From the NCBI GenBank assembly GCA_000632805.1, contig CP007444.1, positions 2,046,001 through 2,110,000 of the forward strand: a stretch of 64,000 nucleotides of DNA. The letters are read 5' to 3'. Positions 2,010 to 51,844 of the stretch are shown here, in pieces. A program made the position numbers and the translations under genes. This DNA comes from Dyella jiangningensis (GTDB lineage Bacteria; Pseudomonadota; Gammaproteobacteria; Xanthomonadales; Rhodanobacteraceae). The notes beneath the pieces were generated by a model that made no database searches, had not been told where the DNA came from, and saw only the letters and a list, made by a program, of their open reading frames with translations. Each line of letters starts with the position of its first letter. Positions within the stretch are counted from its first letter, which is position 1.

Positions 2010-3665
2010 ATGACAAAGGGTTCCGATCTGCTGGTTGCGGCGCTGGAGAACGAGGGTGTCGAACGCATCTTCGGCATCCCCGGCGAAGAGAACCTGGACT
2101 TCGTCGAGTCATTGAGAGGATCCAGGATCGAGCTGGTGCTCACGCGGCACGAGCAGGCAGCAGCCTTTATGGCTGCGACACATGGCCGTCTCACCGGGCG
2201 CCCCGGGGTCTGTCTTTCCACGCTTGGACCCGGCGCGCTGAACTTCACGACCGGCGCGGCGTACGCGCACCTGGGTGCGATGCCCATGGTGATCATTACC
2301 GGGCAGAAGGCGATCAAGAGCGCGCGGCAAGCACGCTTCCAGATTGTCGACGTCGTGGGTGCAATGCGGCCGCTCACCAAGATGACGCGGCAGATAGTCT
2401 CCGCTTCGTCCATCCCCACGCTGGTGCGCGACGCTTTCCGCGTGGCGAGCGAAGAGCGTCCGGGGCCAGTGCACCTGGAGCTGCCCGAAGACATTGCGGT
2501 GGAAGAAGCCGACGCGCTGCTCGTACCGCCGCATAGTATCGAGATGCCGGTGGCGGCCCCGTCGGCGGTGGAGCACGTGACGGAGATGATCCTGAAGGCT
2601 ACCAACCCCATCATCATGGTGGGCGCGGCGGGCAATCGTCCCCGTCTGGTCGAGCCGTTGTCGGATTTCGTCCGCCGCCTTCAGGTGCCCTTCTTCAACA
2701 CACAGATGGGCAAGGGCGCCGTTACCGGCGGCTCCAATCTCTACCTGGGCACGGCGGCGCTTTCCGAACACGACTACATTCATCTCGCGATCGAGCGGGC
2801 GGACCTGGTGATTGCGATCGGTCACGACACGGTGGAGAAGCCGCCGTTCCTGATGGGCAAGGCTACGGGCGGCCCGAAGGTGATCCACATCGGCTACGAG
2901 TCGGCGCACGTCGAGCAGGTGTTCTATCCGGATGCCGAACTGGTGGGCGACATCGGCGCCAATGTATCCGCCCTGGCCGACCGGCTTGCCGGCCGGGTGA
3001 AGGTCGACCCCGAAATGCTCGCCTTGCGGCAACGCATCCTTGAGCGCATCAATGAAGGCGGCGACGCGGACGCCTTTCCGCTATTGCCGCAGCGCATCGT
3101 GCATGACGTGCGCAAGGCGATGCCGGACGACGGCATCGTGTGCCTCGACAATGGGATGTACAAGATCTGGTTTGCTCGCGGCTATCGCACGTACACCGCC
3201 AATACCTTGTTGCTCGACAACGCCCTGGCGACGATGGGGGCCGGCCTGCCCTCGGCCATCGCGGCCAAGATGCTGCATCCGCAGCGCCGGGTGCTGGCCA
3301 TATGCGGCGACGGCGGTTTCATGATGAACAGCCAGGAGCTGGAGACCGCCGTGCGGCTGGGGCTGGATCTGGTGGTGCTGATCATCGAAGACGGTGCCTA
3401 CGGCATGATCCGCTGGAAGCAGGCCGTCGACGGTTTCGAGGATTACGGCATGAGCTTCGGCAATCCGGATTTCGTCACTTATGCCAAAGCGTATGGCGCG
3501 CATGGACACCGCATCGAATCCACGGCATCGCTCCTGCGCACCCTCGAAGGCGCGTTCAACGCTGGCGGTGTGCACCTGGTTACCGTGCCCGTGGACTACC
3601 GCGAGAACATTCGCGTGTTGATCGACGAGCTGGCGAGCCTCCGCTCCAGCGTCGATGCCCGCTGA
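2010..3665 (+). CDS. Acetolactate synthase-like thiamine diphosphate enzyme (large subunit type)
   Basis: A 551-aa protein with the full three-domain layout of ThDP decarboxylases. The N-terminal Pyr domain has FGIPGEENLDFV and RHEQAAAFMA with the catalytic Glu at residue 48. The middle domain is Rossmann-like (about 190-330). The C-terminal PP domain has the ThDP/Mg motif GDGGFMMNSQEL at 433, ending about 30 residues on in EDGAYGMIRWKQ. Acetolactate synthases condense two pyruvates to acetolactate in branched-chain amino acid or acetoin metabolism. No regulatory small subunit lies nearby, which argues against the biosynthetic IlvBN pair. The partner gene, 61 nt downstream, is an aldehyde dehydrogenase of the succinate-semialdehyde type. 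The natural 2-oxoacid is therefore uncertain; a related decarboxylase activity is possible. Confidence 0.85.
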   Translation: MTKGSDLLVAALENEGVERIFGIPGEENLDFVESLRGSRIELVLTRHEQAAAFMAATHGRLTGRPGVCLSTLGPGALNFTTGAAYAHLGAMPMVIITGQKAIKSARQARFQIVDVVGAMRPLTKMTRQIVSASSIPTLVRDAFRVASEERPGPVHLELPEDIAVEEADALLVPPHSIEMPVAAPSAVEHVTEMILKATNPIIMVGAAGNRPRLVEPLSDFVRRLQVPFFNTQMGKGAVTGGSNLYLGTAALSEHDYIHLAIERADLVIAIGHDTVEKPPFLMGKATGGPKVIHIGYESAHVEQVFYPDAELVGDIGANVSALADRLAGRVKVDPEMLALRQRILERINEGGDADAFPLLPQRIVHDVRKAMPDDGIVCLDNGMYKIWFARGYRTYTANTLLLDNALATMGAGLPSAIAAKMLHPQRRVLAICGDGGFMMNSQELETAVRLGLDLVVLIIEDGAYGMIRWKQAVDGFEDYGMSFGNPDFVTYAKAYGAHGHRIESTASLLRTLEGAFNAGGVHLVTVPVDYRENIRVLIDELASLRSSVDAR

Positions 3666-46348: not shown

Positions 46349-46399
46349 TTTGGATCAATAACATGCCGGGTGTGTTCCCAACCCACTCGGAGTATTGCC

Positions 46400-47269
46400 A
46401 TGACCATCCTCGTTACAGGTGCCACCGGCCGCGTCGGCCGCCATGTCGTCGACCAGCTCGTCACGCGCGGCGCCGCCGTGCGGGTACTTACCCGCGACCC
46501 GTCGAAAACCTCCTTCCCTGCCGGTGTCGACGTTGTCCAGGGAGACCTGCTTGATATCGACGCGGTGCGGGCCGCCTTCGACGGCATCAGCACGCTGTTT
46601 CTGCTCAACGCCGTGGCCGGCGACGAATTCACCCAGGCCATCCTCACGCTCAACGTGGCGCGCGAGGCGGGGGTGAAGCGCGTGGTCTATCTCTCGGTGA
46701 TCCACGCCGACCGCTTCGTCAACGTACCGCACTTCGCGGTGAAGTTCGGCGCCGAACACATGCTGCGGCAGATGGGTTTCAGCGCCACGATCCTGCGACC
46801 GAGCTACTTCATCGACAACGAGCACATGATCAAGGATGTGGTGGCCAGCCACGGCGTCTATCCAATGCCGATCGGCAGCAAAGGCATCGCCATGGTCGAC
46901 GCGCGCGACATTGCCGAAGTCGCCGCCATCGAATTGATCCGCCGCGACCAGGCCGCCGATACGTTGCCTGTCGAAACGATCAACCTCGTCGGCCCCGATA
47001 CGCTGACGGGCACGGAAGTGGCGGCGATCTGGTCGGACGTGCTGGGACGTCCCGTGGTGTACGGCGGCGACGACCCGACGGCTTTCGAGCAGAACCTCGC
47101 CAGTTTCATGCCGAGGTGGATGGCCTACGAGATGCGCCTGATGGCCGAGCGCTATGTCACCGACGGCATGGTTCCCGAAGCTGGCGACGTCGAACGCCTG
47201 ACCGGACTACTGGGCCGGCCGCTGCACTCTTATCGCGGGTTCGTGAACGAAATGGTCGCCGAGTCCTGA
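46400..47269 (+). CDS. NmrA-like NAD(P)-binding protein
   Basis: 289 aa from the ATG at 46400. The Rossmann motif VTGATGRVGRHVVDQLV is at residues 5-21, followed by VRVLTRDPSKTSFPAGVDVVQGDL and STLFLLNAVAGDEF. This is the NmrA/atypical SDR family (NAD(P)H-sensing or quinone reductase-like, QorB-type). The substrate is unknown. It is divergent from the LysR regulator. A 10-bp hairpin (47356-47382) lies 87 nt after the stop. Confidence 0.92.
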   Translation: MTILVTGATGRVGRHVVDQLVTRGAAVRVLTRDPSKTSFPAGVDVVQGDLLDIDAVRAAFDGISTLFLLNAVAGDEFTQAILTLNVAREAGVKRVVYLSVIHADRFVNVPHFAVKFGAEHMLRQMGFSATILRPSYFIDNEHMIKDVVASHGVYPMPIGSKGIAMVDARDIAEVAAIELIRRDQAADTLPVETINLVGPDTLTGTEVAAIWSDVLGRPVVYGGDDPTAFEQNLASFMPRWMAYEMRLMAERYVTDGMVPEAGDVERLTGLLGRPLHSYRGFVNEMVAES

Positions 47270-47613: not shown

Positions 47614-48048
47614 GTGTTCGGCGTGGATGAGCAGCAGACAGGGCGTGAGAGGCGGAACGACACGACGTGGCGTGAACTGCTGTCGTCGACACGGCCTCTC
47701 GTTCTGCCGGCGGCACACGATGCGCTCACGGCGCGACTGGTGGAGCGCGCTGGATTCAAGGCGTATCAGGTAGGTGGCTTCGCGCTTGATGGGAGCCATT
47801 ACGGTTTTCCGGATATCGACCTGACGCACTTCGGTGAGAAGTCGGCCGTGATCAGACAGACCATCGGCGCGTCCTCGCTGCCGGTGCTGGTGGATGGCGA
47901 CAACGGCTACGGCGACGTCAAGAATGTCACGCGGACGGTGCGCGGCTACGAAGCGATGGGCGCGTCGGCCATCTTCATCGAAGACCAGGTATCACCCAAG
48001 AGCTGCGGACAGGAAGGAAAAAAGAAGTCATCCCGGCCGAAGAAATGA
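47614..48048 (+). CDS. PEP mutase/isocitrate lyase family protein, N-terminal part (split by frameshift)
   Basis: The frame opens at a GTG (47614; a second GTG at 47623 is also possible). It carries the first half of the family: RPLVLPAAHDALTARLVERAGFKAYQVGGFALDG, by halves, the metal-binding VDGDNGYGD and the loop SPKSCGQEG, which matches the KKCGH-type catalytic motif with Gln in place of His. The reading frame then changes at a run of six A (48018-48023) and ends 7 codons later at TGA 48046. The second half continues in the -1 frame at 48024. Together they make a complete member of about 298 aa. The family cleaves or rearranges C-C or P-C bonds in 2-oxoacids. Confidence 0.8.
   Translation: MFGVDEQQTGRERRNDTTWRELLSSTRPLVLPAAHDALTARLVERAGFKAYQVGGFALDGSHYGFPDIDLTHFGEKSAVIRQTIGASSLPVLVDGDNGYGDVKNVTRTVRGYEAMGASAIFIEDQVSPKSCGQEGKKKSSRPKK
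48018..48024 (+). other. In-frame slippery heptamer A AAA AAG
   Basis: The heptamer is in the zero frame (GGA AAA AAG) at the exact point where the two halves must join by -1. A stem GCCGA/TCGGC (48036-48040 and 48049-48053) lies 11 nt downstream and AGGAAGG directly upstream. It could be a programmed frameshift site, or a one-base deletion in a homopolymer. Confidence 0.5.
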
Positions 48049-48509
48049 TCGGCAAGGTGAAGGCCGCGGTAGCCGCCTGCCGAGTGCCGGGTACGTTCAT
48101 CCTGATCCGCACCGATGCGCGCAGCGCCGTCGGCCTCGATGAAGCCATTCGTCGCGGTGAACTCTATCGGGATGCCGGGGCGCACGGTTTGTACATCGAA
48201 GGCCTGGAAAGCGCCGCGGAATTGGAAAAGGTCGGCAAGGCCCTTGCCGGCACGCCGCTGGCCACGACCATGATGGAAGGCGGCGGCAAACTGCCTTGGC
48301 TGTCTCCGCAGGAAATCGGCGGCTACGGCTTTTCGATGATCCTTTATCCGACGACGGTGCTCTTCCGCATGACGCGCGCGATCGAACGTGCACTGGCGGA
48401 TCTGCATGCCGGGCGCCCCATGTCGGAGCTGGATGCCGTAGACCATGCAACCTTCGATGACATCGTGGGCAAAGAGGCCTGGGCCCGCATCGAGGACGAG
48501 TTCAAATAG
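48045..48509 (+). CDS. PEP mutase/isocitrate lyase family protein, C-terminal part (split by frameshift)
   Basis: Open from an ATG at 48045 that overlaps the first half's stop (ATGA), but the true continuation begins upstream at 48024: EVIPAEEMIGKVKAAVAACR. The rest is normal for the family: FILIRTDARSAVGLDEAIRRG, YIEGLESAAELEKVGKAL, TTMMEGGGKLPWLSPQEIGG, LYPTTVLFRMTRAIERAL. It ends WARIEDEFK, the usual end. Base use is the same as in the first half, so there is no sign of long decay. Confidence 0.8.
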   Translation: MIGKVKAAVAACRVPGTFILIRTDARSAVGLDEAIRRGELYRDAGAHGLYIEGLESAAELEKVGKALAGTPLATTMMEGGGKLPWLSPQEIGGYGFSMILYPTTVLFRMTRAIERALADLHAGRPMSELDAVDHATFDDIVGKEAWARIEDEFK

Positions 48510-48540: not shown

Positions 48541-49458
48541 TCACAGGTCGATCGACCAGGTCTGCCCGACCAGGTCTTTGCCAAAGCTGTGATGTGCCTC
48601 TTCCTCGATGAGCTGGAATCCGGCTCTCTCGTAAATGCGGCGTGCATCGACCAGCACGCTGTTGGTCCAGAGCACCATCTTCCGGTAGCCGGCCTGTCGG
48701 GCAAACCTCAGGCATTCGTCCACGAGTCGACGACCGATGCCCAGGCCGCGTGCGTTGGCGTCCACGTATAAGAGGCGCAGTTTCGCGGTGGTCTCGTTGT
48801 GGCGCACAACGAAGATCGAGCCCACGATCTGGCCGTCCATCTCGGCGATCCAGCATCGATCGGATCGTGCGTCGAACTGTTGCACGTACTTGGCAACGAT
48901 CTCGGCCACCAAGGCTTCGAATTCAGCGTTCCAGCCGTACTCGTCGGCGTAGAGCAGGCCCTGGCGGTGGACGATCCAGCCCATGTCGCCGGGCTGCGGA
49001 TCGCGCAGCAGATAGCCCGAAGGGTGTTTTTCTCCGAGGAAACCCTGGATCTGCGCCATGGCGTGGACCAGCTGGTCCTGCTCCGGCTCGGACAAGCGGC
49101 GCAGCATGCCCATGACCTGTTCGCGGGACGCATCGTTGAGCGGCTGAAAGGTCTGCCGCCCTTTCTCGGTGAGTTTCAGCCGCGCCACGCGGGCGTCATC
49201 GGTTGAGCGGCTCTTGGTCACCAGGCCCTGCTTCTCGAAACCACCAATCACCCTGCTGACATAGCCCGCATTGAGGCCGAGCATCCGGCAAAGGTCGGCG
49301 CTGGTCAGCGCTGGCTTGTGGGCGAGCTCATAAAGCATCCGCACCTCGGTAAGCGAGTAGTCGCTCTCAAGCAGGTGCTCGTGAAGTACTCCTATACAAT
49401 GTGTATAGAAGCGATTGAATTGGCGTACTTTTTCCGCCTTTTCCTCCAGACTCCCCAT
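48541..49458 (-). CDS. MarR-type regulator fused to a GNAT acetyltransferase
   Basis: 305 aa from the ATG at 49458. Residues 1 to about 140 form the MarR winged helix (LTEVRMLYELAHKPALTSADLCRMLGLNAGYVSRVIGGFEKQGLV, by halves). Residues about 155-305 are a GNAT domain with motif A ARGLGIGRRLVDECLRFARQ and LVDARRIYERAGFQLIEEE. Such two-domain proteins are known as bifunctional HTH/GNAT proteins. Acetyl-CoA may be a signal or a co-substrate; the target is unknown. A 36-bp dyad lies directly upstream of its start. Confidence 0.92.
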   Translation of the reverse strand: MGSLEEKAEKVRQFNRFYTHCIGVLHEHLLESDYSLTEVRMLYELAHKPALTSADLCRMLGLNAGYVSRVIGGFEKQGLVTKSRSTDDARVARLKLTEKGRQTFQPLNDASREQVMGMLRRLSEPEQDQLVHAMAQIQGFLGEKHPSGYLLRDPQPGDMGWIVHRQGLLYADEYGWNAEFEALVAEIVAKYVQQFDARSDRCWIAEMDGQIVGSIFVVRHNETTAKLRLLYVDANARGLGIGRRLVDECLRFARQAGYRKMVLWTNSVLVDARRIYERAGFQLIEEEAHHSFGKDLVGQTWSIDL

Positions 49459-50533: not shown

Positions 50534-51067
50534 GGTCGACATCCTCGGTCGGCAAGTGGCCATCACCTCAGATCAGCCGAGGTACCCGCCAGCACCTCGT
50601 GGCGCGGCGAAACCATCCTAAGTTCGGCGCGAAGCTCCCAGTAGATGCATCGGCGGGATCGCGGTGTTGCCTTGAAAACACCAGTCTTCCAATGCTGTCA
50701 CAAACAGCGTCACCGAAACGTCTATCAAGACAGAGGCAGCCGCACCACGACGACAAGCCGGGCGAGTTGTCCGGGTATCGCCATCGACCTATTGCCTGAT
50801 CGCCTCGATGAGGACTTCAGTAGGAGGCGAAGGAGATCCCCGGAAGCCATGGTTTGGCGGGAGCCGTTCATCTGAACGTGGCGGTGAACCGCATGAAGCG
50901 GCTGCAGGTGTCGGAAAAGAGGGAAATCGTCGTGAAAAAGCGCCCGCTCTCCCCGATGGCTGCGCCACGAGCGCTGCCATTCACATCGCAGTCCATCACG
51001 GTTCGAGATGGCTGCGCGCTCATCGAACACACGCGGCGCCCAGGCGACCGCCAACGCGGAGACTCTC
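50534..51067. other. Intergenic region between divergent genes, no gene seen
   Basis: 534 bp. Several frames are open on both strands, but their products are Arg-rich and repetitive in the way antisense frames are. I see no ribosome site that would start one. Promoters of the AhpD-like and NmrA-like genes must be here; none stands out. Confidence 0.4.
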
Positions 51068-51844
51068 ATGAAAATCGTTGTCATCGGTGGTACCGGACTC
51101 ATCGGCAGCAAAGTCGTCGAACGCCTGCGCAGGCAAGGGCACGACGTGCTTGCCGCGGCGCCGTCATCGGGCGTGAATGCCCTCACCGGCGAAGGGCTCG
51201 ACGAGGCGATGCGCGGCGCGGACATCGTGGTGGACGTGGCCAACTCCCCATCGTTCGAAGACCGGGCCGTCATGGATTTTTTCGAAACATCGGGACACAA
51301 CCTGGCAATGGCCGAAAAAAAGGCCGGCGTGAAGCACCATGTGGCCCTCTCCGTCGTGGGCACGGGGCGCGACGCCTTCGCGGCGAGCGGTTACATCCGC
51401 GCCAAGATGGTCCAGGAAGAGTTGATACGTGCCACCGGCATTCCCTACACCATTGTCCACTCCACCCAATTCTTCGAGTTTCTCAATGGCATTGCCGGAG
51501 ATGGTGGGCAGGCGCAGGACATCCCTATTTCCACGGGCCTGATGCAGCCCATCGCCGCGGAGGACGTTGCGGACGCCGTCGCTGATTACACGCTGGGCGC
51601 ACCAGTGAATGGCGTTGTGGAAATCGCCGGGCCCGAGTCGGCCCCCATGGCGGAGTGGGTTCGTCGTTTCCTCGCCGCGACCGGCGATGCGCGCAAGGTC
51701 GTCGCGGATCCGAAGGCGCCCTACTTCGGCGCCGTGCTGGAGCCCGACACGCTGTTGCCAGGCCAGGGGGCGCGACTGGGCAAGCTGGATTTCAAGGCAT
51801 GGTTCGACCGCTCGACATTCGCCACCAAAGGAGCGACGAACTGA
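51068..51844 (+). CDS. NmrA-like NAD(P)-binding protein
   Basis: 258 aa from the ATG at 51068 with GGAGA 6 nt upstream; the longer frame from 51008 is not used. Rossmann motif VVIGGTGLIGSKVVERLR at residues 4-21, then LTGEGLDEAMRGADIVVDVANS and the HHVALSVVG segment. An atypical SDR (extended/NmrA-like). Substrate unknown. It is a second gene of this type, about 4.7 kb from the one at 46400, and they share only family-level similarity. Confidence 0.92.
   Translation: MKIVVIGGTGLIGSKVVERLRRQGHDVLAAAPSSGVNALTGEGLDEAMRGADIVVDVANSPSFEDRAVMDFFETSGHNLAMAEKKAGVKHHVALSVVGTGRDAFAASGYIRAKMVQEELIRATGIPYTIVHSTQFFEFLNGIAGDGGQAQDIPISTGLMQPIAAEDVADAVADYTLGAPVNGVVEIAGPESAPMAEWVRRFLAATGDARKVVADPKAPYFGAVLEPDTLLPGQGARLGKLDFKAWFDRSTFATKGATN

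Follow-up and report, generated by a model that had tools for sequence, protein, structure and literature searches.

Does a gene that changes frame exactly at a slippery heptamer make use of that heptamer, or has it lost a base there? The question is raised by a gene of the PEP-mutase/isocitrate-lyase (ICL) superfamily in a 64,000-nucleotide stretch of Dyella jiangningensis DNA, which we call the window (2046001-2110000 of one 5.4-Mb contig; 63% GC). Here the heptamer A AAA AAG is located in zero-frame phase right at the transition between the two halves of the gene. The programmed -1 frameshift of E. coli dnaX uses the identical heptamer in the identical phase, and a preliminary description of the locus placed programmed frameshifting at the head of its possible readings.

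A gene divided between two frames

The N-terminal half of the gene occupies 47623-48048 of the forward strand in the zero frame, starting at GTG 47614 or GTG 47623 and ending with TGA 48046-48048, while the C-terminal half lies in the other frame of the same strand at 48045-48509. In the list of open reading frames (ORFs) the two appear as 47614-48048 (144 aa) and 48045-48509 (154 aa), in frames one base apart. Each half separately exceeds the curated cut-off of the PF13714 PEP_mutase profile (31.5 bits), with 85 bits for the first and 51.6 bits for the second, and they match adjoining segments of this 240-position profile, 2-108 and 123-238 respectively. NCBIfam equivalog scoring of the halves apart (methylisocitrate lyase, CPEP mutase and others) gave 101.8 and 77.7 bits, to be set beside a prpB cut-off of 354.4. 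The gene split is genuine: the family sequence runs on in the -1 frame, and the read-through protein aligns without a gap, across all 295 residues, to the ortholog of a congener (genome G006). A join of the two halves by a -1 shift at 48018-48024, as originally described, is therefore borne out by the ORFs, the PF13714 matches and this alignment.

Direct reading of the letters agrees with the earlier account of the junction itself. The zero frame reads GGA AAA AAG at 48016-48024, with six A and then G at 48018-48024; seven sense codons follow before the TGA, which overlaps an ATG at 48045-48047. The break had also been placed right after an SPKSCGQ loop, and in alignment this segment falls on the PKRCGH of many relatives, which puts a Cys-bearing loop directly before the break. 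We take this PK-x-CG loop to be a motif of the PEP-mutase/ICL superfamily. When the intact G006 protein was compared with solved structures (phmmer), the closest by sequence were the petal death protein 1zlp (E 4.8e-47) and 4iqd, named carboxyvinyl-carboxyphosphonate phosphorylmutase (E 9.5e-42); unlike the gene in the window, both are single chains covering both halves. The intact gene would encode an enzyme of this superfamily. Further, distant members of the family are found at three other places in the same genome.

Intact relatives and the probable loss of one base

Relatives were collected by searching with the C-terminal half in 61 genomes, the window's own included, and with the N-terminal half in GTDB contigs (40 loci), in genome collections that hold one genome per species. 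Because these searches used one half alone, the collection was not biased against loci with a break at the junction. Among the 20 genomes of the genus that were covered (19 besides the window's own), G006 alone has a close ortholog. This gene (locus L003, 1501-2385, minus strand) is one open frame of 319 aa with 94% amino acid identity to that of the window, and it is flanked by the same neighbours, an NmrA-like NAD(P)-binding protein (46370-47269, plus strand, in the window) and a MarR-GNAT fusion (48541-49458, minus strand). The two copies differ in that the G006 frame is continuous and has no A AAA AAG. At the run, G006 has one base more than the window, and the six-A run, a seven-A run and the heptamer are all missing there. 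Of the suggestion that a deletion or sequencing error had removed one A from seven, the one-base loss is supported by the intact relatives, whereas the predicted seven A's do not occur in G006, so that the lost base cannot be named from these two sequences. Across 233 family genomes searched (E 1e-60), close orthologs occur in three, namely the window's genome, G006 and one whose DNA is identical to that of Fulvimonas sp. R45 locus L032 (100% over 3846 bases); the gene is therefore accessory, with a patchy distribution. In another part of the window, 16654-29707 matches G006 at 93.4% identity over 13 kb, with other matching parts at 80-86%. Within that segment are three long ORFs, 1042-1088 aa in length, whose repeated DGGxxW motifs look to us like BNR/VPS10-type repeats, and also what we take to be a TonB-receptor-like ORF.

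A wider comparison gives the same picture of the junction. All 76 relative loci (75 of them distinct, as L160 repeats L032) cross it in one frame, a crossing being a best match that spans residue 120 or earlier through residue 150 or later of the read-through protein. The comparison took in every locus gathered to that stage other than that of the window, the survey stretches of 20 kb and L072, which duplicates the G006 place. Many are distant family members; nine (eight distinct) are at least 55% identical. The match in L071 does contain a stop, late and far from the junction. The frame transition is thus shared by none of the 75 distinct relatives, the nearest congener included.

Compared with G006 by the Nei-Gojobori method, the N-terminal half has dN 0.027, dS 0.404 and an omega of 0.068, and the C-terminal half dN 0.028, dS 0.351 and an omega of 0.080. 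The halves look equally constrained and decay is not visible, which argues that the break is either recent or present in the assembly alone. Most of this constraint is probably older than the break, and signals its recency rather than present use of the gene. A deletion, if real, would have to be young, and an assembly error would be expected to leave an identical picture.

The quality of the assembly bears on this choice, and we compared 800 kb of the window's genome (G000) with an equal 800 kb from G006, running the GC3-filtered ORFs of each against the other; this covers 15% of the window's genome and the orthologs within it. The 517 G006 ORFs yielded 289 confident orthologs on G000, eight of them flagged: the split gene, three interior breaks on the G006 side, for which a longer G000 ORF was found in the reverse list, three breaks that lie 5' of the common likely start, and one length difference of 6 and 5 bases near the C terminus (G006 B3:135116-136756). 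With the alignments read, the split gene is the one clean interior one-base break in G000 among the 289 orthologs. In the reverse direction, 498 G000 ORFs gave 293 confident orthologs and 12 flags, comprising three clean interior one-base breaks in G006, two differences involving two bases, and the rest near the 5' end. The G006 breaks fall in long genes that are intact in G000 (L135 6601-9808, L128 13717-15739 and L136 15767-17460), and the G006 assembly may be the more error-prone of the two. An earlier, coarser survey (400 kb per genome, no GC3 filter) had flagged five of 53 confident orthologs from 286 ORFs, and seven of 66 from 308 in reverse. Three of its five first-direction flags are absent from the filtered survey and were not counted as breaks: B0:86015-88135 and L099:5153-7648 have GC3 below GC1, lie opposite ORFs of normal coding GC and look like shadow ORFs, and B0:89584-90285, a less certain case, overlaps an ORF on the other strand whose coding signal is stronger (GC3 0.82 against 0.75). 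The contamination figure of this complete, single-contig genome is high (8.39), and split genes offered no explanation for it in the 800 kb sampled.

Taken together, we consider it highly likely that the split reflects a one-base loss in an ordinary accessory enzyme gene, arising either by real mutation or from a base-calling error left in the assembly. A generally noisy assembly was rejected as the cause, as sampled G000 is not rich in errors. Its cleanness argues against error and tips the balance slightly towards a real mutation. Residual errors, on the other hand, would fall in just such a short A run, and we place the two close to even, with mutation a little ahead. In this model, a base lost at a short purine/A run would put the C-terminal half out of frame, the loss being either of very recent date or a homopolymer error that the assembly retains. 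The product would be a fragment of 141-144 residues that lacks the second half of the domain and is very probably inactive, and spontaneous slippage at the leftover heptamer would supply at most a little full-length protein. The singleton frameshift genes of Antonov et al. 2013 (PMC3711429) are likewise confirmed by intact homologs and unshared. In that paper such homolog-confirmed frameshifts absent from relatives are taken to be sequencing errors or recent indels, the expectation for them being an error and not a genuine indel.

The heptamer, its surroundings and the alternative readings

Two observations sit uneasily with a simple loss: the missing base yields exactly an in-phase A AAA AAG, and the sequence after it folds better than its shuffles. 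The heptamer alone is unremarkable in this genome. It occurs in phase in four of the 498 GC3-filtered ORFs from the 800 kb, the split gene included; in the remaining three the frame runs on for 158-176 codons. The accessible part of PMC9307594 counts 68 E. coli genes that contain A AAA AAG, which makes the motif alone a weak predictor. Among the 76 relative loci, AAAAAAG appears in the aligned stretch of three (L037, L061 and L071); in L037, an Ignavibacteria relative with 59% identity, it lies at the homologous site (3391-3397) but in a different phase, and the frame is unbroken. Separately, a further NmrA-like gene of the window (51008-51844, about 2.5 kb downstream) has an in-phase A AAA AAG in an open frame.

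The fold concerns the 41 nt downstream of the heptamer, predicted at -14.2 kcal/mol (z -2.66, 3/200 shuffles) and containing a 5-bp stem with an 8-nt loop that begins 11 nt past the heptamer (48036-48053, plus strand). The stem noted in the preliminary description is thus recovered in this short stretch, but it gives way to other pairings in stretches of 71, 86 and 121 nt, whose z values are -1.16, -1.11 and -1.84. The intact G006 copy is predicted to form the identical stem within a weaker fold (-7.8, z -0.80). The stem is therefore tied to the coding sequence, and the outer pairs of the predicted fold are what is particular to the window.

A deletion confined to a single lineage could have left both an in-phase A AAA AAG and a locally stable hairpin, and so created a newborn recoding site, where the full-length enzyme supplied by slippage would suffice to keep the broken gene. 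If true, this would capture an early stage in the passage from accidental slippage to programmed frameshifting; we consider it improbable. Also very improbable is an adventitious rescue by corrective frameshifting, in which the deletion is real and fixed, and spontaneous -1 slippage of the ribosome at the heptamer, or slippage of RNA polymerase on the A run, yields a meaningful amount of full-length enzyme. PMC4066793 lists A_AA.A_AA.G among the motifs that in E. coli shift above 0.10% even without a stimulator, and PMC5009743 describes corrective frameshifting as a class. The known corrective cases given there are mostly mitochondrial, however, and the bacterial cases of transcript slippage come from the reduced genomes of endosymbionts, at long poly(A) runs, whereas the run here is six A in a GC-rich window. 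Moreover, nothing points to selection for slippage, a sign of which was looked for at this locus and not found.

Programmed -1 frameshifting of the dnaX kind, with a stem-aided slip producing the full-length enzyme alongside a short N-terminal product, is very unlikely. The in-phase heptamer, the local 41-nt fold and the constraint on both halves would suit it, and A AAA AAG, when accompanied by stimulators, ranks among the most efficient slip motifs of E. coli (PMC4066793). An AGGA at 48011-48014 might be added as an upstream element, but it is very near the heptamer, with four bases between it and the heptamer's second base (the accessible text of PMC4066793 uses SD spacings of 6-17 nt, counted from the SD start or end), and it is present in G006 as well. 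The stem is likewise already in intact G006, the longer folds are nearer to chance, and the in-phase heptamers of three other ORFs in the genome leave their frames open. In contrast to dnaX, we found no stimulator in the window that clearly belongs to the broken copy alone. Above all, the reading fails on the intact frame of the sole congener with the gene and of all 75 distinct loci aligned, a finding that the preliminary description had itself set as its refutation.

Phase variation, also raised in the preliminary description, would have slipped-strand mispairing at the homopolymer toggle the gene on and off. The break is indeed located in an A run, and PMC3711429 notes that phase variation, although it chiefly concerns surface proteins, has links to genes of metabolism as well; yet six A fall short of the 7-nt tract minimum used in that paper, and the congener has no such run, which leaves this idea unsupported and scarcely credible. 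Least probable of all is a pair of cooperating subunits made separately by ATGA re-initiation and then reassembled, for the overlap of TGA and ATG is a by-product of coding, as G006 and Fulvimonas, whose copies are intact, have the same Met codon in the alignment, and none of the 75 distinct relatives is split there.

In itself the split matters little. Should the break be confined to the assembly, annotation as a single intact enzyme would be right for the gene. The locus provides a clean case of how the loss of one base in a Lys-Lys stretch can mimic a dnaX-type site, and it shows how a close relative bears on a question of frameshifting.
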